A stretch of 64,000 nucleotides of DNA from Purpureocillium takamizusanense (lineage: Eukaryota > Ascomycota > Sordariomycetes > Hypocreales > Ophiocordycipitaceae): positions 4,526,001-4,590,000 of the forward strand of contig NC_063069.1 in the NCBI RefSeq assembly GCF_022605165.1. Reading direction: 5' to 3'. Positions 6,516 through 27,528 of this stretch are shown piece after piece (positions within the stretch are counted from its first letter, which is position 1; every line of letters starts with the position of its first letter). Position numbers and translations under genes: made by a program. Below the pieces are notes generated by a model. The model was not told the DNA's origin. It was given only the letters and a program-made list of their open reading frames with translations, and did no database searches.

Positions 6516-7545
6516 TTAAAGGTTCACGTCCTGAGTGACGCCGGTCGATTCCAGCCTTTTTGTCGCCATTGCAAATCTGATCGTCGCACGCACGGCCTGC
6601 ATGTCCGGTTCCCATCTGTCGTCATCCGACGCAGCTTTGCCTCCCAAAAAGAAAGATAGATTCCCAATCTTTGTTCGTGCGCACTTGAGCAAGATTTCCC
6701 GTTGTGCCGTCCACTTCTTGCACCGAAAGAGAAAGTGTTCTACCGTCTCTGTTGCTTGTCCGCAATCGCACAGGCCCGATTCCGCTGCTCCTATCCTGCG
6801 GAGATAACTGTTCAGTCGCATCATGCCGGTGCGGAGCTGCACCAGCACCTCTGCTTCTTTCCTTTCCAGCGAGTCGTATATAGCACGGATATGCCTGCCT
6901 GGCAGTGCCTTGTCAATTCGCTTCGAGTATTTTCCGACGCTTTCCGGTAGTTGTTCGCGCGTCCCTTCTTGGGCGAGAGCTAGCCTGAGCGTTGTCACCT
7001 TCGCTTGGTACCAGGGCACTTCCGCCTCGCATCCCCTCTCCGTGGCTCGTTTCGCGGCGGCCTTGGCCAAGTGCCGCGATGCGAGCTCCTCTTCGCCGGC
7101 CGGTGCGTACCTAAGTCTGATAGCACAGCCTCGCTTCTGAAGGTGCTTCATCTGATCGTATATCCCGCGGATAGTGCATTGTCCAGATTGCTGCTGGGGC
7201 CGCCTGACTGCCGCCACTACCGAGCGGTTGCCCACCACGACCGTCACGTCCTGAGGGACAAGGCCTGGTGGTATAGACCTGAGCGCTGTCGCTATCGCTT
7301 CCAGCTCTGCTGTATACGGATTTTGTTCGGTTCCAGGTCCGACGGTGACAGAAAAGGTGGCGAGGATGTGGTCCATGCCGCCATGCGTTGCGTCGCAAAC
7401 AACGCCTCCCATGCCCACAGCGCCATGCCTCAGTGACGCAGCTGTTGCTATAAGGATGTCCTGTACATCATATGGCGTCCGCGTCTCTTCTAGGTCATCC
7501 TGACCCAACACAGGGATGCGGTCCGTCCACGGCCGTAATGCCGCG
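6516..7545 (-). mobile_element. LINE fragment, RNase H domain and zinc knuckle (copy 1)
   Basis: The minus-strand frame (to 7754 including non-LINE sequence) encodes the C-terminal end of a LINE ORF2. It has an RNase H-like region (GGVVCDATHGG, NPYTAELEAIATAL, TVVVGNRSVVAAV) and a terminal CxCG-ETxEH-C knuckle (CDCGQATETVEHFLFRC). The segment about 6305-7540 is nearly identical to 25797-27020. Homology stops at about 7540, where unrelated sequence begins, so the reverse transcriptase is lacking. The combination suggests a Tad-like fungal LINE. Confidence 0.75.
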
Positions 7546-7546
7546 C

Positions 7547-9055
7547 CTACGGAGGCCGATAGGGCGCACTGGCGCAAAACCCATTTCGGGCTTAGCATGG
7601 GTGCGCGCCAGCGTCCTGCAGGTACTTCAGGCCGACTTCGAACAGGTACCGAACCTGCTGCAGGGCAGCGGGGTGAGGATGTGCGAAACGGTTGGCCCAG
7701 GGAACAAGGCTGCAAAGCCGCCAGTGCCTTAATGTCTACAGAGTTATCGCACATCTTGCGCTGGGCAATTGATGGCTGGACATTCCAGGCGTTTTATTGA
7801 GCCATGTATGGACTTCGTGTGTTACCTGTTACGCATTTTCCCCTTGGCAGAAATTCCAGAGAGCAGGTCACAAGCAGCCGCAGCCCGCCCACAGCACTAC
7901 CCTGCACGCCGGGCCTAAAAGCGGCGGACATCAACACTTACATCATTTGCCCCAATACGGGCTTCAGCTGCGAGGTTTCGTGACGTAAACTAATTGCTGA
8001 ATATCGACCCTTTGCGGCGGGCGGGATCCGGCTCCGTGTGTGGGCTTCGTGTTCACGGTGGTATGGCTTCGGCTACGGCACCCGGATTCGGTACGCTGGA
8101 GGCCCAGCATGGCGTGGGCGCTAGTAAACCAAGAACTCAGAGGCTTCGGCCGTGTAACGATTGCCAACAGACGTGTCACACACTTAGGGAGGGATCCCAT
8201 GGGCCAAGGAATGCTTGATTTCCTATCTGATACCGACATGAAGCTGCTGTTCTTATACCTGTGCCATTTCATAGACATGACTCACTGTAGGCAACAGTGC
8301 CGTGGCTGCAGGCTGCACTTGTGCAGCCTGAAGCCATACCCGGTTGTTGGCCTGAGGCTCATTTCTTGCAACAGACCGCTTCACAAGTCAACAAAATGAA
8401 CAGGCCAAACTTCCGACGAACGATCATAGACACCCAAAACTGATGTGCAACATATTCCAGCTCATTCGTGACAATTTTCTTCGCGTAGGGATTACTTCCC
8501 ACCACTGTGTTTAATGTCGTACGGTAGAGCGAACCATGGTAGGGCGGACCGTTGCCGTCCCTGATTCGCGCAGCGGGCGCATTGGTCAGTTATGGCACAC
8601 TCAAGGGCTCATCAGCGGTCATGCCCCGCGAATGCCGCTACGATTCAGGTTGCCGGCCACGGTCGGCGCTGGGCCACTCGCCCGCTCTCCCATCGGCCGG
8701 GTTTCCGCACAGGGCGATGGGAGTTGCGGGAAAAAAAATTCTGCCAACTCCTGGTGTAGAAGCTCACTAATCCAGGTATTTGGACGTGGAATCCTTGCGA
8801 GGATGGCGACATTCGCATTGCCACTGGGAAGCTTGATATGGTGAACAATGGCCGCGGACCAGCGAAATGTTGGCCAGCGTGTTCCCGCCCCTGAGAGCCC
8901 ATCCTGGCACGGGCTGAAATCGTGCTCCAGTTGGTAGGGTACAAGGCTTGATGTACTACACTGTGTAATTGTGAAGCCTCTAGCCCGTTTTGTCCAATTT
9001 TTGGTGCGATTTTGAGTTTTGCGCCAGTGACCTCTATAGGCTGCCGTAGGCGCGT
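7547..9055. repeat. inverted short repeats around an unassigned stretch
   Basis: About 39 bp at 7547-7585 (CGCGCCTACGG ... CACTGGCGCAAAAC) recurs in reverse orientation at about 9018-9055. The intervening 1.4 kb (7760-8990) has no gene I can support. The ends could be terminal inverted repeats of a decayed element, but no transposase is seen between them. Confidence 0.4.
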
Positions 9056-14410: not shown

Positions 14411-15794
14411 TTATTCCCCGCGGAACTCATCGAGGTTCAGCCGGGGCAGTCCGTCAAGGCAAACCTTTCCATGAACGAAACGACCGCCATGCTGAATATG
14501 GCGTGCCGCTCCCCGTACGCCAATGCTCTGTCCATCAGCACCGGTGCACGCGAAACTTTGGGGCTTGACGACAGCCGGCTGGAGCACTTTGGGATCGCGG
14601 TTAACAAGGCCTTGCTCACAGTTACTGGCCGAGGAATCGATGTGCCTCTGATTATTTACGCCGTCACCCAGCAAAGGTTATCCTGCGTACAACCCGCAGC
14701 GGCAGTTGGAATATGCAGGGCGTCCGTGTCGCTCGCCCCGGCAAGATGGTGACCTATTGGACTTTTATGAGCATAACAAAGGCTGGGGCCGATAGCTACC
14801 GTGTTGGAGTCGATCAGGGCTGTATCAAAAGATTAAGACCCTTGGGGACTGCGTTTTTGGCACACATACAACCGTCAGCACCATCAAGCACATGCAAAAG
14901 GAGAGCAATCTCATGTACTGGGCCAAGGTCGGCATCAAGATCAACCTGAAAGCCGTTGGTGCCAACCACAATCTCCGGGATGAACTGAGGAAGTTGGAAA
15001 ATAGGAACATGATCGTGGGGTACGATGTGACCCATTCCACCAATATGCCATTCAAAGCAGCCGGAGAGCCTAGCTTGCTGGGACTGGTTGCGAGCATCAA
15101 CATAGAGTTGGCACAATGGCCCGCTGTGTCTTGGGAGCAACCGGCAAGGCAGGAGATGCTCAGCGATCAACTTCTCGACGCATTCAAGTCGCGGTTGGAG
15201 CTTTGGCAAAAGCATAACGACGACCGCTTGCCCGCGCACATTCTCATTTTTCGCGACGGCGTCTCTGAGAGTCAGTTTACGCAAGTCCTCGACAGGGAGC
15301 TACCAACGATACGGCAGGCTTGCCGAGCGAAGTACACGGCGACTCAACCCAAGCTGACTGTTGTTGTCTCGGCCAAGCGCCATCAAACACGGTTCGATCC
15401 CACTACCAAAGAGGACATGTCGGCCTCGGGCAACGTTCTCAACGGCACAGTCGTGGACCGCGGTGTCACCCAAGTAAGGTATTGGGACTTCTTCCTCACA
15501 GCACATCATGCGATCAAGGGCACTGCGCGCCCCGCTCACTACACGGTGCTTTTAGATGAGATTTTCCGGGAGCGGTATAATGCAAAGGCAGCTGACGAGC
15601 TGGAGCGACTGACGCACGAGCTGCGTTACTTGTTCGGCCGCGCGACGAAGGCTGTGAGGATATGCCTACCGGCATATTATGCTGACATTGTTTGCGAGCG
15701 AGCCCGTGTTCACAGCCTGACACGGTCTGGGAAGCTGGACTGGGAAGTGATGATGAGATATAGCTTGTATTCCTCTGGAAGTGGGGTTATCTAG
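14411..15794 (+). pseudogene. Argonaute, PAZ end to PIWI domain (3' part of broken gene)
   Basis: It starts with FPAELIEVQPGQ, the end of PAZ, followed by the linker-2 motif ACRSPYANA ... LGL ... LEHFGIAVN. The MID region is damaged: the frame must shift near 14680 to reach GSWNMQGVRVARPGK, and a TAG interrupts it at about 14793. From 14892 the PIWI domain is one intact frame: KVGIKINLKAVGANHNL, GYDVTHS (Asp), IFRDGVSE (Asp), RPAHYTVLLDEI (His) and the C-terminal VRICLPAYYADIVCERAR. PIWI slices RNA paired to a guide. The catalytic residues look kept, but the gene cannot give a full protein in this state. Confidence 0.8.
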
Positions 15795-16440
15795 CAAGGC
15801 CGTAGGGCAAGTTAATTAGGTATTGGGTCGGCAGAAGAAGATTCTAGGCGTCTCCAATTGGTGAGAGACTAGTAGTGTAACCGCGGTCAAACCGTGGTTT
15901 GCGGTTCGGTTCGGCTTGAGAATTGGCCAGGGACTATTAGTGCGGTTTGCAGAAGCCAAATAAACTGGCAGTTCGGTTCGTCAAAATGGTTCAAACTGGT
16001 GGTTCGGTTCGATCTAGCTTGTCGGACCGTTAAGACGGTTCGGGATGATTTTTCGAACCGGTCACACTATTAGGAGCGCTCTGAGGCTGTAAAACTGCAC
16101 CCCAGTTGGCCTCTAAATGACAAACTGCAGCAACCAAATGAGTGGACATAGGGAAACGTATGCTTAGTCCTGCTGGTCGTAGAATCTACACGTTTTGAGC
16201 CATTGCAGATCAGTTCAGTTGAGTTCACTAAGTCTGTTCTTTTATGAAATTTTCTTTCCGTTGACCTAGTCGTGATACCTAACGAAGACAGAAACGCGCT
16301 AATGGTCGGCCGAGCTTAAACTCCTAGGGAGAACTCCATACAACGACCAAAAGCATCCTTAGCATAACCCGGTCATGTACCCCGACCTCGCCGAATTCAG
16401 CTTCCGGAAGGAATCGACTTTACTATAGTCACCGACCTTG
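15795..16440. other. non-coding, with GGTTCGGTTCG-type simple repeats
   Basis: No gene is seen. At 15880-16070 the motif CGGTTCGG or GGTTCGGTTCG and its relatives recur several times in both orientations. The stretch would be the 3' flank of the microexon gene (minus strand). Confidence 0.5.
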
Positions 16441-19400
16441 TTAACTTATTCGCAGCTATCATGCATTCATATTACGAGCAGTCAAGGCTCATAGCCCATC
16501 ACGCGGACGGCACTTACAACCTAGAGTTGCCACGGCTCTTAGCATAGGGCGAGCAGTAAAGACTCATGGCCCATCACGTGCTAGGCACTTACACACTAGA
16601 GTTCGCACGCGTATTAGCATAGGGCGAGCAGTCAAGACCCATGGCCCATCACGCGGAGGGCACTTACTCCCTAGAGTTCCCATAGACATTAGCATATGGC
16701 GAGCAGTCAAGACTCATGGCCTATCACGCGGAAGGCACTTACAAGCTAGAGTTCGCATTAATATTAGCGTAGTGCGAGCAGTCAAGACTCATGGCCCATC
16801 ATGCTAAAGGCACTTACGACCTAGAGTTCGCATGCGTATTAGCATATGGCGAGCAGTTAAGACTTCTTACCCATCATGCGGAAGGCACTTACTCGCTAGA
16901 GCTCCCATGCGTATTAGCATAGTGCGATCAGTCAAGTCCCATGGCCCATCACGCGGAAGGCACTTACATCCTAGAGTTCCCATACTTGTTAGCATACGGC
17001 GAGCATTCAAGACTCATGGCCCATCACACGGATGGCACTTACAAACTAGAGTTCCCACACGTATTAGCGTAGGGCGAGCAGTCAAGGCTCATGGCCCATT
17101 ACGCGGAAGGCACTTACACACTAGAGTTTACATGAATATTAGCATAAGGCGAGCAGTTAAGACTTCTTACCCATCATGCGGAAGGCACTTACTGGCTAGA
17201 GCTCCCATGCGTATTAGCATAGTGCGATCAGTCAAGTCTCATGGCCCATCACGCGGAAGGCACTTACTCCCTAGAGTTCCCATAGACATTAGCATATGGC
17301 GAGCAGTCAAGAATCATGGCCCATCACGCGGATGGCACTTACAACCTAGAGTTGCCATAGATATATTAGCATACGGCGAGCAGTCAGGACTCAGAGCCCG
17401 TCGCGCTGAAGACACTTACACACTAGAGTTTGCATAAATATTAGCATAAGGCGAGCAGTCACGACTCATAGCCCATCACGCGGAAGGCACTTACAAGCTA
17501 GAGTTCCCATAGACATTAGCATATAGCGAGCAGTCAAGAATCATGGCCCATCACGCGGAAGGTACTTACTTGCTAGAGTTGCCATGGATATATTAGCATA
17601 CGGCGAGCAGTCAGGACTCAGAACCCATCACGCGGAAGGCACTTACAAGCTAGAGTTCCCATAGACATTAGCATATAGCGAGCAGTCAAGAATCATGGCC
17701 CATCACGCGGAAGGTACCTACTTGCTAGAGTTCCCATAGACATTAGCATATAGCGAGCAGTCAAGTCTCATGGCCCATCACGCGGAAGGTACTTACGTCC
17801 TATAGTTCCCATTAGCATAGGGTGAGCAGTCTAGACTCATGGCCCATCACGCGGAGGCCACTTACATTCTAGAATTCCCATATATATTAGCACACGGCGA
17901 GCATTTAAGACTCATGGCCAAACATGCGGAAGGCACTTACAAGCTAGAGTCCCCATGCGTATTAGCATAGTGCCAGCAGACAAGACTCATAGTCCATCAC
18001 GCGGATGGCACTTACAAGCTAGAGTCCCCATGCGTATTAGCATAGTGCCAGCAGACAAGACTCATAGTCCATCACGCGGATGGCACTTACTTGCTAGAGT
18101 TCCCATGCGTATTAGCACACGGCGAGCATTTAAGACCCATGGCCCATCACGCGGATGGCACTTACATCCTAGAGTTCCCATAGACATTAGCATATGGCGA
18201 GCAGTCAAGACTCATGGCCTATCACGCGGAAGGCACTTACAAGCTAGAGTTCGCATTAATATTAGCGTAGTGCGAGCAGTCAAGACTCATGGCCAAACAT
18301 GCGGAAGGCACTTACAAGCTAGAGTCCCCATGCGTATTAGCATAGCGCCAGCAGTCAAGACTCATAGTCCATCACGCGGAAGGCACTTACAAGCTAGAGT
18401 TCCCATGCGTATTAGCATATGGCGAGCAGTCAAAGACTCAAGGCCCATTACGCGGATGGCACTTACATCCTAGAGTTCCCACGTGTATTAGCACACGGCG
18501 AGCACTCAAGACTCATGGCCCATCAGGCGGACGGGACTTACTTTCTAGAGTTCCCACGTATATTAGCACACGGCGAGCATTTAAGACCCATGGCCCATCA
18601 CGCGGATGGCACTTACATCCTAGAGTTCCCATAGACATTAGCATATGGCGAGCAGTCAAGACTCATGGCCTATCACGCGGAAGGCACTTACGACCTAGAG
18701 TTCGCATTGATATTAGCGTAGTGCGAGCAGTCAAGACTCATGGCCCATCACGCTAAAGGCACTTACTCCCTAGAGTTCCCATGGACATTAGCATATAGCG
18801 AGCAGTCAAAACTCATGGCCCATCACGCGGACGCCACTTACACACTAAAGTTCCCGTACGAATTAGCATACGGCCAGCAGTGAAAGACTCATGGCCCATC
18901 ACGCGGACGGGACTTACTTGCTAGAGTTCCCACGTATATTAGCACACGGCGAGCATTTAAGACCCATGGCCCATCACGCGGATGGCACTTACATCCTAGA
19001 GTTCCCATAGACATTAGCATATGGCGAGCAGTCAAGACTCATGGCCCATCACGCGGAAGGCACTTACTTGCTAGAGTTGCCATGGATATATTAGCATACG
19101 GCGAGCAGTCAGGACTCAGAACCCATCGCGCTGAAGACACTTACACACTAGAGTTTGCATGAATATTAGCATAAGGCGAGCAGTCAAGACTCATAGCCCA
19201 TCACGCGGAAGGCACTTACTTGCTAGAGTTGCCATGGATATAAGCATATGGCGAGCAGTCAAAGACTCAAGGCCCATCACGCGGAAGGCACTTACTTTCT
19301 ATAGTTCCCATGCGTATTAGCATAATGCGAGTAGTCAAGACTCAAGGCCCATCACGCTGAAGGCACTTACAAGCTAGAGTTGCCATGGATATAAGCATAT

Positions 19401-22400
19401 GGCGAGCAGTTAAGTCTCATGGCCCATTACGCGGATGGCACTTACTTGCTAGAGTTGCCATGGATATAAGCATATGGCGAGCAGTCAAAGACTCAAGGCC
19501 CATCACGCGGAAGGCACTTACTTTCTATAGTTCCCATGCGTATTAGCATAATGCGAGTAGTCAAGACTCAAGGCCCATCACGCGGATGGCACTTACTTGC
19601 TAGAGTTCCCATGGACATTAGCATATAGCGAGCAGTCAAAGACTCCTAGCCCATCACGCGGATGGCACTTACGGCCTAGATTTCGCATTGATATTAGCGT
19701 AGTGCAAGCAGTCAAGACTCATAGCCCATCACGCGGAATGCACTTACAAGCTAGAGTTCCCACGTATATTAGCACACGGCGAGCATTTAAGACCCATGGC
19801 CCATCACGCGGATGGCACTTACATCCTAGAGTTCCCATAGACATTAGCATATGGCGAGCAGTCAAGACTCATGGCCTATCACGCGGAAGGCACTTACAAG
19901 CTAGAGTTCGCATTAATATTAGCGTAGTGCGAGCAGTCAAGACTCATGGCCCATCATGCTAAAGGCACTTACGACCTAGAGTTCGCATGCGTATTAGCAT
20001 ATGGCGAGTAGTCAAGACTCAAGGCCCATCACGCGGATGGCACTTACTTCCTAGAGTTCCCATGGACATTAGCATATAGCGAGCAGTCAAAGACTCCTAG
20101 CCCATCACGCGGATGGCACTTACGGCCTAGATTTCGCATTGATATTAGCGTAGTGCAAGCAGTCAAGACTCATGGCCCATCATGCTAAAGGCACTTACGA
20201 CCTAGAGTTCGCATGCGTATTAGCATATGGCGAGCAGTCAAAGACTCAAGGCCCATCACGCGGAAGGCACTTACTCCCTAGAGTTCCCATGTATATGAGC
20301 ATACAGCGAGCAGTCAAGACTCATGGCCCATCACGCAGAAGGTACTTACTTTCTAGAGTTCCCACGTATATTAGCACACGGCGAGCACTGAAGACTCATG
20401 GCCCATCACGCGGAAGGCACTTACTCCCTAGAGTTCCCATGTATATGAGCATACAGCGAGCAGTCAAGACTCATGGCCCATCACGCAGAAGGTACTTACT
20501 TTCTAGAGTTCCCACGTATATTAGCACACGGCGAGCACTGAAGACTCATGGCCCATCACGCGGAAGGCACTTACTCCCTAGAGTTCCCATGTATATGAGC
20601 ATACAGCGAGCAGTCAAGACTCATGGCCCATCACGCAGAAGGTACTTACAAGCTAGAGTTCCCACGTATATTAGCACACGGCGAGCACTGAAGACCCATG
20701 GCCCATCACGCGGACGGGACTTACTTTCTAGAGTTCCCACGTATATTAGCACACGGCGAGCACTGAAGACTCATGGCCCATCACGCGGAAGGCACTTACT
20801 TGCTAGAGTTCCCATGGATATCAGCATACAGCGAGCAGTCAAGACTCATGGCCCATCACGCTAAAGGCACTTACAAGCTAGAGTTGCCATGGATATATTA
20901 GCATACGGCGAGCAGTCAGGACTCAGAACCCATCGCGCTGAAAATACTTACACACTAGCATTTGCATGAATATTAACATAAGGCGAGCAGTCACGACTCG
21001 TAGCCCATCACGCGGAAGGCACTTACGTCCTATAGTTCCCATTAGCATAGGGTGAGCAGCCTAGACTCATGGCCCATCACGCTGAAGACACTTACACACT
21101 AGAGTTTGCATGAATATTAGCATAAGGCGAGCAGTCAAGACTCATGGCCCATCACGCAGAAGGTACTTACAAGCTAGAGTTGCCATGCGTATTAGCATAT
21201 AGCGAGCAGTCAAGACTCATGGCCCATCACGCGGAAGGTACTTACTTGCTAGAGTTGCCATGTGTATTAGCATATAGCGAGCAGTCAAGACTCATGGCCC
21301 ATCACGCAGAAGGTACTTACAAGCTAGAGTTGCCATGGGTATTAGCATATAGCGAGCAGTCAAGACTCATGGCCCATCACGCGGAAGGCACTTACTTGCT
21401 AGAGTTCCCATGGATATGAGCATACGGCGAGCAGTCAAGACTCATGGCCCATCACGCGGAAGGCACTTACTCCCTAGAGTTCCCATGTATATGAGCATAC
21501 AGCGAGCAGTCAAGACTCATGGCCCATCACGCGAAAGGCACTTACTTCCTAGAGTTGCCATGCGTATTAGCATATAGCGAGCAGTCAAGACTCATGGCCC
21601 ATCACGCAGAAGGTACTTACAAGCTAGAGTTGCCATGCGTATTAGCATATAGCGAGCAGTCAAGACTCATGGCCCATCACGCGGAAGGCACTTACTTGCT
21701 AGAGTTGCCATGGATATGAGCATACGGCGAGCAGTCAAGACTCATGGCCCATCACGCGGAAGGCACTTACTCCCTAGAGTTCCCATGTATATGAGCATAC
21801 AGCGAGCAGTCAAGACTCATGGCCCATCACGCGAAAGGCACTTACTTCCTAGAGTTGCCATGCGTATTAGCATATAGCGAGCAGTCAAGACTCATGGCCC
21901 ATCACGCAGAAGGTACTTACAAGCTAGAGTTGCCATGCGTATTAGCATATAGCGAGCAGTCAAGACTCATGGCCCATCACGCAGAAGGTACTTACAAGCT
22001 AGAGTTGCCATGCGTATTAGCATATAGCGAGCAGTCAAGACTCAAGGCCCATTACGCGGATGGCACTTACTTGCTAGAGTTGCCATGGATATAAGCATAT
22101 GGCGAGCAGTCAAAGACTCAAGGCCCATCACGCGGAAGGCACTTACTTTCTATAGTTCCCATGCGTATTAGCATAATGCGAGTAGTCAAGACTCAAGGCC
22201 CATCACGCTGAAGGCACTTACAAGCTAGAGTTCCCACAGTTATTAGCATACGGCGAGCAGTCACGACTCATGGCCCATCACGCAGAAGTCACTTACACAC
22301 TAGAGTTCCCATATGAATTAGCATAGGGCGAGTAGTCAAGACTTATCGTCGCTTAAACGGGAGAAACTAACTGGGCTTGCTAGCCCCAGTCCAACAAGGG

Positions 22401-22428
22401 CTGTGAAGAGGATGAAGGTAATCTTCAT
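16441..22428 (-). CDS. secreted cysteine-rich protein encoded by 78 one-codon microexons
   Basis: Exon 1 (22372-22428) encodes MKITFILFTALVGLGLASP, a typical signal peptide, and is followed by a GTTAGT donor. From there each repeat unit is an intron of about 72 nt: GTAAGT donor (77 of 78 after microexons; one GTAGGT), branch point mostly GCTAATAC with CTCAT, CTTAT or CTGAT variants, and a YAG acceptor. Between acceptor and donor lie exactly three nucleotides, 78 times, at 22297-22299, 22222-22224 and so on to 16518-16520. All are phase 0 and none is a stop codon. They give 19 Leu, 13 Gln, 8 Gly, 8 Cys, 8 Asp, 7 Lys, 6 Val, 3 Glu, 2 Ala and one each of Arg, Phe, Pro, Asn. Cys fall at microexons 1, 17, 19, 43, 47, 66, 70 and 77. 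The proposed last exon (16441-16455) reads LRIS and stop, after an intron with a weaker branch point. The product is about 101 residues, about 84 after signal removal. Function is unknown; an effector or toxin-like secreted peptide is possible. The 5' and last exons are less certain than the array. Confidence 0.8.
16456..22371 (-). repeat. 75-bp tandem array (72-nt intron plus 3-nt exon), about 79 units
   Basis: The unit is 75 bp with occasional 69, 76 or 77 bp. Length changes fall inside the intron part (for example CAGTCAAAGACTC against CAGTCAAGACTC), never in the three-base slot. Higher-order repeats show recent local expansion: a 150-bp dimer at about 20275-20725 and a 300-bp tetramer at about 21420-22020. 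Flanking intron sequence is highly alike between units while the three-base slot takes 15 different values. Units at both ends of the array (16.5-17.4 kb and 22.2 kb) are the most diverged. Read on the plus strand the unit can mimic a 25-residue repeat (MAHHAEGTY...), but that frame breaks repeatedly. Confidence 0.95.
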
Positions 22429-24654
22429 TTTGACCAGTAAGTAGTGATTAGTTACAACTAAGGTGTATAGAAGAAAGTTGACCTTGTCGCGGTGTTACTC
22501 CGCGGCGGGGTTTCGCTGTCTTAAAATATTTCATCCAACGAAGGCTTACGCAGATCCAATATACTTAGTATAGCTTAGTCATTTAGAACGTCTTAAATAC
22601 GTCTTAGGTGGCGCGAAAGTCTCAGTTGTCGCTTTTGGGAATTGTGTAATATCGAGTGTGTGTGTATTTGTCAAACGTACGGTGTGGATACCAGCATAAA
22701 AGGCGTCACGGTCTAAAAGATGGGGTATGAGCTGTCGGTTTTGGTCACGGGGAATTGTGTAAGTTCGGGTGTGTGTGAATTGTGTGTCTGTGTGAGCCAC
22801 ACTGCCTGTCCAATGGACTCTTTTAGACCGTGACGCCTTTTGTGCTGGTATCCACACCGTACGTCTGACACACACACAGACGTACGGTGTGGATACCAGC
22901 ACAAAAGGCGTCACGGTCTAAAAGATCGGGGGTATGAGCAGTTGCTCGAGTGTATTGATCGTGATCTTCATTGCTCCCTCTCTGCCAATTCTCGTTGCCA
23001 TTTTCCTCTTGTGGACAAGTGAGACATGCAGCTCGCTGATAGATTCACGACGTGTTGGATCCGCGACGGGAATTATGAAGGCGCACACAACGTTATGAAG
23101 ACATTGAGATCATCTTCGTCATCAAGAATGAGGTTATTATTGGTCCCTTCTTGAGGCGCTTGAGGATTGTGTATTTCTCCTCGTCATCACGCTTGTTTTG
23201 TGCGTGAAGTGGCGGTGTGGCTGTTGACCTTCACCATATTGCAAGGTCTCAGTCCACGCTTGGAATACGTCCACACCGTTTTGTCATCGAGTCACCCGTT
23301 TCAGTGTTTGTTAAAACTGTGAGGGAGCGAGGTTGCATAAAGTATCTAACAGCTCATGCATACGGCTAGCGCGTCCATCTAACAAAAAACGACGAGAGGC
23401 TGGGTAGCGTTGGAGTGTGGCGGTGCGCCCAGGGCGTCGGGTTGTTGGCCGACGCCCCGTCCGAAAGATCCCACAGAACACACACTTCTCAAGCAATGAA
23501 ATCACCAGTTCTCGCCAATCATTGACTACAGTGACCCCCTCGGGTAATCGGTGAAACCAGCGCGTATCCAACATTATCAGCCTTCATTTAGTTCGTCAGC
23601 TTATCAGGTGACCCGAGTTGGGTATGGCTGGCCTGCGGTTCCACCCCGCCTCTGTGCCGTGCGCCACCGTCGAGCCGTCCGGCAAGCCATCGGCGCTAGT
23701 CTGAAACCGCTTCCACCGGAGCATCACTTCCGCCATTTGGACACAAAGGCGTCACCGTTGAAAGAAGCTTGAGTGTACAAACACACGAACTGATTGCGCC
23801 CAGTGGCCAGCTGGCCAATAGAGCAACTATCGCTTAGTGTACATGTCCGGGCGTAAGCCACTAAATAATTATAGACCATTGGATAGGCCTCGAGGCCAAT
23901 TAGCCGTGGCGTTTGGCTCGTCAACACTATGATTGCGTCGTAGCGGCTCGTTCGCAGACAGCAGTTGGCTGGTGGATCAATTATGGTGATGAGCACTACC
24001 TTCGCACTGAATTTCACTGGCATACCCTAAGACAATGTTTGAGCTTGCGATTTGGTGCTGATCTGACTGTCTCCGAGGTTGTGAATGCTGCAGTTGGTCG
24101 CGTTGTGTGTTTGTAAATTGTCGTTCAGTTTGACGAACACTTGTCAAGAAGTAGTGCATATGAGCGAGACGTCGAGGATCACAAGGGACTTCCCTCAGTG
24201 CGAAAACAAAGCCATTCCTGGTACGGTACGCAGCTCCCGAGCTGGTAAGTCGCCGCTGGCATAGTCAATTACAATGTGGCGGCATGCATTCTAGCCATTC
24301 ATCACAAGCACAACTTACACGCCGGAACTGGTTAGTCCATCCAATCACCCAATATCGTCGTGACCGGCGACCTGGGGTTGACTTAGGAGAATCTCGCGAC
24401 GGACTTAGTGGTCACGCGGCTCGCGATGCAAATACAAAGCGTATTGTCCAGCTGCCACGTAAGCAGTCAGAACACACACTGTCTAATCGGTGGTCCGTGG
24501 ACAGGGTCTGCTTAAAATTGCGCAAACCCCACTTACGAAAAACTCCAAGAAATGATCCAAACTCATCCAGCCTCACACCCAGATCAGTTGGATAGCAACA
24601 ACAGCCTCACTCCTGGTCCGAATTACAACTAACTGCTATACTTACATCAACAGC
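22429..24654. other. spacer between two divergent microexon genes
   Basis: About 2.2 kb separating the start codons of the two head-to-head microexon genes. It should hold both promoters. It contains the inverted repeat at 22674-22925. Several short frames (for example 23311-23574 minus) show no recognisable domain. Confidence 0.5.
22674..22925. repeat. near-perfect inverted repeat with a third direct copy
   Basis: A segment of about 45 bp (ACGTACGGTGTGGATACC ... GGTCTAAAAGA) occurs three times: direct at about 22675-22720, inverted at 22819-22866, and direct at 22877-22925. The last two face each other across about 10 bp of (CA)n and would fold into a hairpin of about 46 bp. GAATTGTGTAA followed by GTGTG also recurs at about 22640 and 22751. 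It resembles the end of a foldback or MITE-type element. Confidence 0.8.
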
Positions 24655-25796: not shown

Positions 25797-27528
25797 TAAT
25801 TGACAATCTGGTTCGTTTGGTACGTGGCACCCCAGGCCCTACAGATAGATCGTCGCACCGCTTGTAGGACAACCCCGTCTCTTGATCCCATGACAGGCCT
25901 GCTTGAAGGCCAAGTTCTTCAAGTGTTCAGCATCCTATTCTCAGCAACTGAAGCACGGTCTGCCACAGCCGAGGCTGTTTTGTTAGTATAGCCGCATGAT
26001 AAAGACCCACACCCTAAGTGACGCTGGTCGGTCCTAGTCTTTTCGTCGCAATTGCAAATCTGATTGTCGCACGCACGGCCTGCATGTCCGGTTCCCATCT
26101 GTCGTCATCCGACGCAGCTTTGCCCCCCAAAAAGAAAGACAGATTCCCAATCTTTGTTCGTGCGCACTTGCGCAAGATTTCCCGTTATGCCGTCCACTTC
26201 TGGCACCGAAAGAGAAAGTGTTCTATCGTCTCTGTTGCTTGTCCGCAATCGCACAGACCCGATTCCGCTGCTCCTATCCTGCGGAGATAACTGTTCAGTC
26301 GCATCATGCCGGTACGGAGCTGCACCAGCACATCTGCTTCTTTCCTTTTCAGCGAGTCGTATATAGCGCGGATATGCCTGCCTGGCAGTGCCTTGTCAAT
26401 TCGCTTCGAGTATTTTCCGACGCTTTCCGGTAGTTGTTCGCGCGTCCCTTCTTGGGCGAGAGCTAGCCTGAGCGTTGTCACCTTCGCTTGGTACCAGGGC
26501 ACTTCCGCCTCGCATCCCCTCTCCGTGGCTCGTTTCGCGGCGGCCTTGGCCAAGTGCCGCGATGCGAGCTCCTCTTCGCCGGCCGGTGCGTACCTAAGTC
26601 TGATAGCACAGCCTCGCTTCTGAAGGTGCTTCATCTGATCGTATATCCCGCGGATAGTGCATTGTCCAGATTGCTGCTGGGGCCGCCTGACTGCCGCCAC
26701 TACCGAGCGGTTGCCCACCACGACCGTCACGTCCTGAGGGACAAGGCCTGGTGGTATAGACCTGAGCGCTGTCGCTATCGCTTCCAGCTCTGCTGTATAC
26801 GGATTTTGTTCGGTTCCAGGTCCGACGGTGACAGAAAAGGTGGCGAGGATGTGGTCCATGCCGCCATGCGTTGCGTCGCAAACAACGCCTCCCATGCCCA
26901 CAGCGCCATGCCTCAGTGACGCAGCTGTTGCTATAAGGATGTCCTGTACATCATATGGCGTCCGCGTCTCTTCTAGGTCATCCTGACCCAACACAGGGAT
27001 GCGGTCCGTCCACGGCCGTAATGCATGCTCGTGGATGACTTCCATCCGCTCCGTGGACTCTTTAGCCATCATCGCAGCAATGCGTTGAAGTGGTGAGAGA
27101 TAGCGCTTGCTTGCTTTGTTCTTCAGTGCTGCCAGTGGGTTCGTCTGCGGCAGCGTCCGCAGCCACGCAGAGCCTCGTCGCAGCCTGCTTATCCCGTTCC
27201 CCTACTGCGCGGATGCCGGCCTCGACCTCGGCCACCGCGGTTGAAACGGTCTGGAACGATCCTGTGATGGCCTGCGCGCCGATCCGTTGCGCTTCGTTCA
27301 ACGCGCGTGTATCCAGACATTCGACGCATAGTCCATCGCCGGGGCGACCGTCGCCATGAACAACTGTCTCGCTACCCTCGGTGAGAGCAACTTCAGCCTC
27401 CTCAAGTGGATGCGTGATCGTAGAGTTACACGCGACCGACGTGAGAGCTTAAACGCGCTCGCTGAACGGAGCACGGAGAAGACTCCGACGAAACGTCGCA
27501 GGGACAAAGTAGACAAATGTGTCGCCAA
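25797..27528 (-). mobile_element. LINE fragment, end of reverse transcriptase plus RNase H (copy 2)
   Basis: From 5' to 3' on the minus strand it encodes the reverse transcriptase C-terminal region (PRVARQLFMATVAPAMDYAS, QRIGAQAITGSFQTV), then RNase H and the zinc knuckle. A frameshift near 27180 separates the two parts: the original frame reads RTLPQTNPLAALKNKASKRY after the break. The RNase H part matches copy 1 (6516-7545) almost exactly. It is 5'-truncated at about 27528, the usual result of incomplete reverse transcription. Confidence 0.75.

Follow-up and report, generated by a model that had tools for sequence, protein, structure and literature searches.

A fungal secreted-peptide gene with a putative run of 78 one-codon exons and its relatives in Purpureocillium takamizusanense

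Introduction

How finely can the coding sequence of a gene be divided into exons? The question is raised by a locus of the insect-killing fungus Purpureocillium takamizusanense (Ascomycota; Hypocreales; Ophiocordycipitaceae), which lies on the minus strand of a 64,000-nucleotide stretch of DNA, referred to here as the window (RefSeq assembly GCF_022605165.1, contig NC_063069.1, positions 4,526,001 to 4,590,000; window positions are counted from its first letter). What looks like a 75-bp satellite can be read at this locus as an unbroken series of introns separated by exactly three bases, and a first-pass annotation had proposed a gene of 78 consecutive one-codon exons that follows a signal-peptide exon, so that about 6 kb of DNA would encode roughly 100 amino acids. 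The layout is confirmed by the analysis described below and is supported by two relatives, although the proposal of a single gene has to give way to that of a small family. We consider it very probable that the window gene is functional and belongs to a small superfamily whose secreted peptides are rich in disulfides, with a mature part that would be spliced codon by codon. The splicing of the 78 one-codon exons is inferred from the DNA sequence.

Results

Anatomy of the window gene

When the minus strand was searched for YAG-NNN-GTA[A/G]GT, exactly 78 triplets were returned, from window position 22299 to 16518, in agreement with the number given in the first-pass annotation. Each triplet is followed directly by GTAAGT (GTAGGT in one case), and CTNAY occurs no more than 34 nt from the acceptor in 76 of the 77 units. 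As stated in the first-pass annotation, the triplets remain in phase 0 throughout after the signal-peptide exon, with no stop codon and eight Cys codons among the 78. Spacing between triplets ranges from 69 to 77 bp and is 75 bp in 63/77 units, the other 14 comprising 12 of 76 or 77 bp and two of 69 bp. Tandem Repeats Finder reports 78.3 copies with an 83% match, and a 150-bp probe of the array unit gave 57 matches, all inside the array and none elsewhere in the genome. The features of the gene, all on the minus strand, are as follows.

22372..22428: predicted exon 1 (57 nt), with the start codon and a signal peptide, MKITFILFTALVGLGLASP, called by eye; a GTTAGT donor follows
22300..22371: predicted intron 1 (72 nt), the 3' portion of which resembles the array units (sequence, splice model)
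16518..22299: array comprising 78 predicted one-codon exons with 77 intervening introns (66-74 nt), encoding CLKQLLEGQLEGQLQLCDCLQKLGKGKGVAEVLDLAQKQLKQCQDQCGVDKDLLLDQLLNDQLQLCVGPCFDRVLGCV (pattern match, unit alignment, splice model)
21249..21923: higher-order duplication within the array, units 6-10 recurring at lag 4 as units 10-14
16441..16455: candidate last exon, CTGCGAATAAGTTAA, which reads LRIS-stop in the first-pass model (splice model)
16420..16422: rival stop codon, TAA following CTATAG (by eye)
16302..16349: 3' hairpin element, GGTCGTTGTATGGAGTTCTCC..GGAGTTTAAGCTCGGCCGACC, common to the window gene and five other loci

The lag-4 duplication, which shows no more than two mismatches per unit and yields LEGQ LEGQ L, is the clearest such case in the array.

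Variable triplets between frozen splice signals

Alignment of the 77 window units distinguished 11 splice-signal columns, 61 other intron columns and three exon columns. The donor columns are constant across the units apart from a single A to G change, while the acceptor TAG and both the T and A columns of the branch site are present in 77/77. Overall, changes were found in 1/847 cells of the splice-signal columns, 513/4685 cells of the other intron columns and 129/231 cells of the exon columns, and 10 of the 11 splice-signal columns are invariant compared with 7 of the 61 other intron columns (Fisher test, 3.6e-7). Of all 3-nt windows in the unit, the triplet varies most (4.84 bits), the runner-up being a window within the intron (4.44 bits). 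In 61 pairs of units with one to three differences per 60 flanking bases (3.9%), 45.9% of codon sites differ, and among near-identical units divergence is highest in the exon triplet (0.475), followed by an intron window at 0.337, with a median of 0.052. Hence, some portions of the intron vary as well. With regard to reading frame, 66 of the 78 window introns have a length divisible by three and all 66 contain an in-frame stop; six introns are stop-free, but none of these is of length 3n, so that each would shift the frame. Judged from the behaviour of its units, the window array is not simply a satellite that arose by chance.

Two relatives with unlike introns

A genome-wide search for GTAAGT..CTNAY..YAG NNN GTAAGT gave 83 matches, of which 74 lie in the window array, six in a locus on contig 1 (L029) and two in a locus on contig 10 (L030); two reversed-pattern controls gave 0 and 1 matches. 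The lone match outside the three arrays, at C8:930373, has a stop codon as its triplet. Another array pattern, one that opens with GTGAGT, matched three places, two of them in L030, as against three for its control. Further, the genome-wide count of YAGNNNGTAAGT, arrays included, is not above that of its control (414 versus 430), which makes many additional arrays of this donor type unlikely.

L029 and L030 each contain 16 signature triplets, within 1910 and 1400 nt respectively, where shuffled sequences contain 0.18 and 0.20 on average, and no such triplet was found on the opposite strand of either locus. As a control we used 385,716 nt (both strands), from which the arrays and the loci overlapping them were excluded and in which three stretches were counted twice; this sequence contains 62 signature triplets. 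Cysteine codons account for 11/32 of the triplets in L029 and L030 but for only 2/62 of the control triplets (Fisher test, 8.6e-5). The two loci share the layout of the window gene, yet their introns are unlike one another, the best intron-to-intron score being 21 in L030 (shuffles: mean 22.4, maximum 26) and 34 in L029 (shuffles: mean 31.2, maximum 34). By this measure, L029 and L030 are not satellites.

A hand-made model of L030 has 21 exons, 18 of which are consecutive one-codon exons, and gives as its predicted product MKLIYVALAAFVGLAAANPLGERSLDLVLDKR and then ACDPSCNCCKCAPPPCRCCDDVKRAHATTL. The one-codon exons in this model start directly after KR, a placement that depends on a hand-chosen weak donor, GTTGCG. 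The corresponding model of L029 encodes 76 residues in 26 exons, of which 21 are one-codon exons, and includes several weak sites. Cys is encoded by seven one-codon exons in the L030 model and by five in the L029 model, 12/39 in all. In the AT-rich middle of L029, 13 one-codon exons have a GC content of 44%, compared with 18% in the introns (Fisher test, 5.6e-4), as would be expected if the triplets were coding.

The introns in this region (L029:4880-6250) are extremely AT-rich, many having 7-25% GC; GC content is 58% genome-wide (PMC9302088). A short tandem repeat of the unit ATATATAGTGCAGAACG was noted by eye directly downstream of the L029 gene (L029:6925-7085).

Codon choice in the one-codon exons

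Across the window gene, L029 and L030 there are 117 one-codon exons, and not one carries a codon that ends in AG, whereas such codons make up 12.2% of the 3135 codons in seven other open reading frames (ORFs), taken unspliced from the ORF list of the window. Directly before GTAAGT, such a codon would give rise to a NAGNAG double acceptor, through which the exon could be erased. Only for triplets that are genuine exons would its avoidance be expected. In line with this, the Lys, Gln and Glu exons are AAA, CAA or GAA in 27/27 cases, while the A-ending form is used in 118/501 cases in the seven other ORFs. The window array supplies 23 of these 27 exons, which are in part copies of one another; for the remaining four, from L029 and L030, the probability is 0.003.

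A 3' hairpin element links the arrays to other genes

An element of the form GTCGTTGTATGGAGTTCTCC..GGAGTTTAAGCTCGGCCG is located downstream of all three arrays. Searching the genome with the 3' half (no more than three mismatches) gave 86 matches, of which six have at most one mismatch, compared with 50 and 49 in the controls, and the 5' half (no more than two mismatches) gave 13 compared with 8 and 7, namely the same six places and seven others, all with two mismatches. Both halves occur together at only six places in the genome. The predicted hairpin has 17 pairs, five of which are changed on both sides. With only six sequences, the same six from which the structure was derived, 500 shuffles never matched the number of paired cells, the number of cells with double changes or the covariation score, and four of them matched the number of pairs with double changes. 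There was no excess of further pair types in the element (equalled by 394/500 shuffles), and the outer stem is broken in one of the six copies, that of contig 8 in the alignment. An Rfam search of window positions 15900-23000 gave no match at the element; the three matches obtained, all to microRNA families and below the gathering scores, fall on a palindrome at 22835-22909.

Three further loci carry the element. L062 is a knottin gene (Pfam PF11410, E 1.9e-10, 40.9 bits with a cut-off of 22; ALO3, E 9.4e-9) with three ordinary introns, all of phase 0. L063:7774-8445 is a single open frame with a signal peptide, four Cys and a long series of consecutive GGNDR repeats, the latter being a different kind of repeat expansion within the element family. 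L061 is a minus-strand gene that extends from about 2697 downwards; its second part is very Lys-rich, and its first 199 codons gave no Pfam family above the cut-off.

A signal peptide together with an even number of Cys residues is found in the window gene and in five of the six element loci overall, the counts in these five members being 8, 6, 8, 6 and 4. The signal peptides of the window gene, L029, L030, L062 and L063 all run for 19 residues to a Pro, and their pairwise identities are 6 to 10 of 19. Since such signal peptides are common in fungi, this likeness alone proves little. As part of the explanation as a whole, however, we hold with good confidence that the three array genes and the other carriers of the element form a small superfamily, rather than that the window harbours one isolated gene.

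Genomic surroundings

Just upstream of the gene, window positions 22658-22925 contain inverted repeats, with 49-nt arms that are 100% complementary and 9 nt apart and further arms of 63 nt that are 92% complementary; this arrangement looks like a foldback transposable element. The gene lies between two minus-strand ORFs, 6516-7754 and 26185-27072, which have a long, nearly identical stretch in common and look, on visual inspection, like the RNase H portion of a non-LTR retrotransposon; ORF 6516-7754 gave no Pfam match. Near the 3' end of the array, on the plus strand, an ORF at 14892-15794 has a Piwi domain that spans profile positions 44-298 of 302 (E 4.6e-60); the ORF may be either a fragment or a piece of an intron-containing Argonaute gene. 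For one protein encoded in the window, among the best 120 of 530 matches, the top match with a species name is from Purpureocillium lilacinum (90% identity over 100%), another sequence shows 96% identity over 70%, and the named species that come next have about 70-75%.

Discussion

In the results presented above, support for reading the locus as consecutive one-codon exons of a gene comes from relatives with unlike introns, from a shared 3' element and from variable triplets set between frozen splice signals, as well as from the absence of codons ending in AG and from the GC contrast of the L029 triplets. According to the model that we favour, members of the superfamily would have an exon for the signal peptide, a mature part that changes rapidly and, in the 3' untranslated region (UTR), a conserved hairpin, with the mature part cut into one-codon exons in three members. 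The spliceosome would proceed by intron definition, recognising each short intron by its strong GTAAGT donor, its CTNAY branch site and its YAG acceptor, and the single codons would be joined to form a coding sequence some 300 nt long. The product would be an 8-Cys peptide of about 80 residues, presumably secreted and disulfide-bonded, and by analogy with its knottin relative L062 it might have an antimicrobial or host-directed role. Growth of the array has been by duplication of units that each comprise an intron plus a codon, so that whole residues can be gained or lost with the frame unharmed.

Several points weigh against this model. The counts within the window are not independent trials, since the 78 units are mutual duplicates. 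Stop depletion in L029 and L030 is not significant (0/32 triplets compared with 4/62 in the control; Fisher test, 0.30). When exons were chosen by a free splice model, L030 and L029 gave 13 and 15 one-codon exons, respectively, with longer exons elsewhere, and because this departs from the hand-made models the exact peptides of the two loci are uncertain. The hand-made model of L030 relies on weak sites (donor GTTGCG, acceptors AAAG and GAAG), as does that of L029 (donors GTAATA and GTATAA), which in addition has introns of 42 nt and 345 nt; an in-frame stop is present in only 7/8 (L030) and 5/7 (L029) of the introns of length 3n. One of the six element loci, L061, lacks a signal peptide as judged by eye. 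A search of 5.8 billion proteins gave no homologue of the predicted window peptide, which likewise gave no match in Pfam or the PDB, and none of the L062 protein, and the helical amphipathicity of the window peptide is not above that of shuffled sequences, 25% of which reach it.

The exact C-terminus of the window gene is also uncertain, ranging from 97 to 101 residues. The length of about 101 residues given in the first-pass annotation can be reached with CTGCGAATAAGTTAA, but ends at 97 residues, with the TAA at 16422-16420, and at 99 residues are rival candidates. Splice-model scores for the 99-residue variant, which reads through past the 77th codon, and for the 101-residue model are level (227.3 and 227.1); exons of 3 nt make up 76/78 of the exons in the former and 78/80 in the latter.

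A further difficulty is that about 80 successive splicing events would be needed and that interchangeable introns should favour skipping. Size does not bar a 3-nt exon, since Fusarium CYP621A has an exon of 1 nt whose splicing is backed by Sequence Read Archive (SRA) reads from two species (PMC12940212). Skipping would yield shorter in-frame peptides, because all exons are in-frame cassettes. It is even conceivable that one locus gives rise to a combinatorial set of peptides: as the 78 exons are all 3 nt long and in phase 0, and their introns nearly interchangeable, any exon could be skipped in any combination with the frame intact, which could yield a very large number of related secreted, disulfide-rich peptides. 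We regard this extension as tentative and, on balance, doubtful. If it is true, every residue serves splicing as a cassette and evolution as a module, and unit duplication inserts or deletes single residues in the course of evolution.

Could the one-codon-exon gene have worked formerly and now be silent or a pseudogene, leaving the array as a fossil? The lack of homologues for the window peptide would be consistent with this, but splice signals have changed in just one of 847 cells, though an ungapped comparison of the 60 flanking bases shows 7 to 15 differences in 2207 of 3003 pairs of units; moreover, no stop has arisen in the 78 triplets, and exon 1 and the 3' element are still there. We therefore judge decay of the gene to be improbable. 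Slightly harder to sustain is a non-coding minisatellite with an intron-like look, the gene proper being a short signal-peptide ORF beside it. Such an origin would account for a 75-bp tandem array with an 83% match that lies near transposon-like inverted repeats and whose unit is absent from the rest of the genome. On the other hand, L029 and L030 share the layout without being satellites, the invariant columns are those of the donor, branch point and acceptor, and Cys enrichment, the absence of codons ending in AG and the 3' element that the loci have in common would be left unexplained, making this explanation very unlikely.

Recursive splicing would treat the array as one giant intron in which each YAG-NNN-GTAAGT serves as a ratchet point and the triplets are discarded. 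In recursive splice sites YAG adjoins GTAAGT, and the array resembles them in this respect. Ratchet points, however, require neither a codon between AG and GT nor an enrichment in Cys, whereas seven (L030) and five (L029) of the one-codon exons in the hand-made models encode Cys and the L029 triplets stand at 44% GC against a background of 18%. We find it hard to credit either that the triplets are discarded in this way or, to the same slight degree, that the product would comprise only the signal peptide and a short tail. Finally, a plus-strand protein with a usual repeat of 25 codons, suggested by open stretches of 209, 212 and 236 codons on that strand, can all but be dismissed, given that 12 units of 76 or 77 bp break the frame (the two of 69 bp preserve it), that the conserved columns are minus-strand splice signals and that L029 and L030 are not tandem repeats.

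The preferred reading, that of a working gene spliced codon by codon, is directly testable because RNA-seq data from the same strain are public (SRR16888993; PMC9302088). If transcripts confirm it, exon size would go down to one codon along an entire mature protein. The gene would represent a limit case for intron definition, in which three bases separate each acceptor from the next donor about 80 times in succession, and a natural test bed both for the order in which the spliceosome handles near-identical introns and for the avoidance of NAG codons. It would also provide an example of residue-by-residue peptide evolution by means of a minisatellite. In addition, annotation could overlook a class of secreted peptides of this kind, because very small exons are frequently missed, as described for a Trichoderma micro-exon (PMC11121469) and for plants (PMC8831610).

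Comparison with known systems

The micro-exon genes (MEGs) of Schistosoma encode secreted proteins by way of many tiny exons, mostly of length 3n, with splicing diversity (PMC10526429). The window gene resembles them in that most of its coding sequence lies in many short 3n exons and in its N-terminal signal peptide (by eye). MEGs differ in having 10-20 exons, mostly of 15 bp, and introns of up to 5 kb; the range of exon sizes is given as 3-81 bp in the abstract and 6-81 bp in the text (PMC10526429). The window gene is fungal, with 78 predicted exons of exactly 3 nt and array introns of 66-74 nt.

The bicycle and megacycle genes of aphids encode putative effectors and have very many small exons of uniform phase, with more than 100 micro-exons in one gene (PMC9168663). 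Unlike the window gene, with one residue per exon, megacycle distributes about 2000 residues over its micro-exons (PMC9168663). Internal bicycle exons are of phase 2, whereas the one-codon exons of the window gene are all of phase 0.

Fusarium belongs to the same order as the window fungus. Its CYP621A gene offers a case of an ultra-small exon that is spliced in a fungus, backed by SRA data, but this is a single 1-nt exon in an otherwise ordinary gene rather than an array (PMC12940212). In Trichoderma, a 20-nt micro-exon has been reported, and the same article states that functional micro-exons were previously undescribed in filamentous fungi (PMC11121469).

At the level of the predicted peptide, two further comparisons can be made. 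Conotoxin superfamilies, which are animal venom genes, combine a conserved signal peptide and 3' UTR with a hypervariable, Cys-rich mature part between them, and the window family shows a similar division into conserved flanks and a variable Cys-rich centre. To our knowledge, conotoxin genes are not split codon by codon. The ALO3-type knottins (PF11410) are linked to the window gene through L062, which has its 3' element and a similar signal peptide. The window peptide differs from them in its eight Cys and their spacing, and it is not assigned to PF11410, with no Pfam family above the cut-off.

In the micro-exon literature covered, which consisted of titles and abstract openings among the matches listed and left preprints and most subscription papers outside, no gene class with consecutive one-codon exons was found; this agrees with the remark in the first-pass annotation that no family was known in which nearly every residue has an exon of its own. 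Spliceosomal introns and micro-exons, the parts from which the window gene would be built, are known, and as far as these searches go the class in which an exon equals a codon appears to be new.

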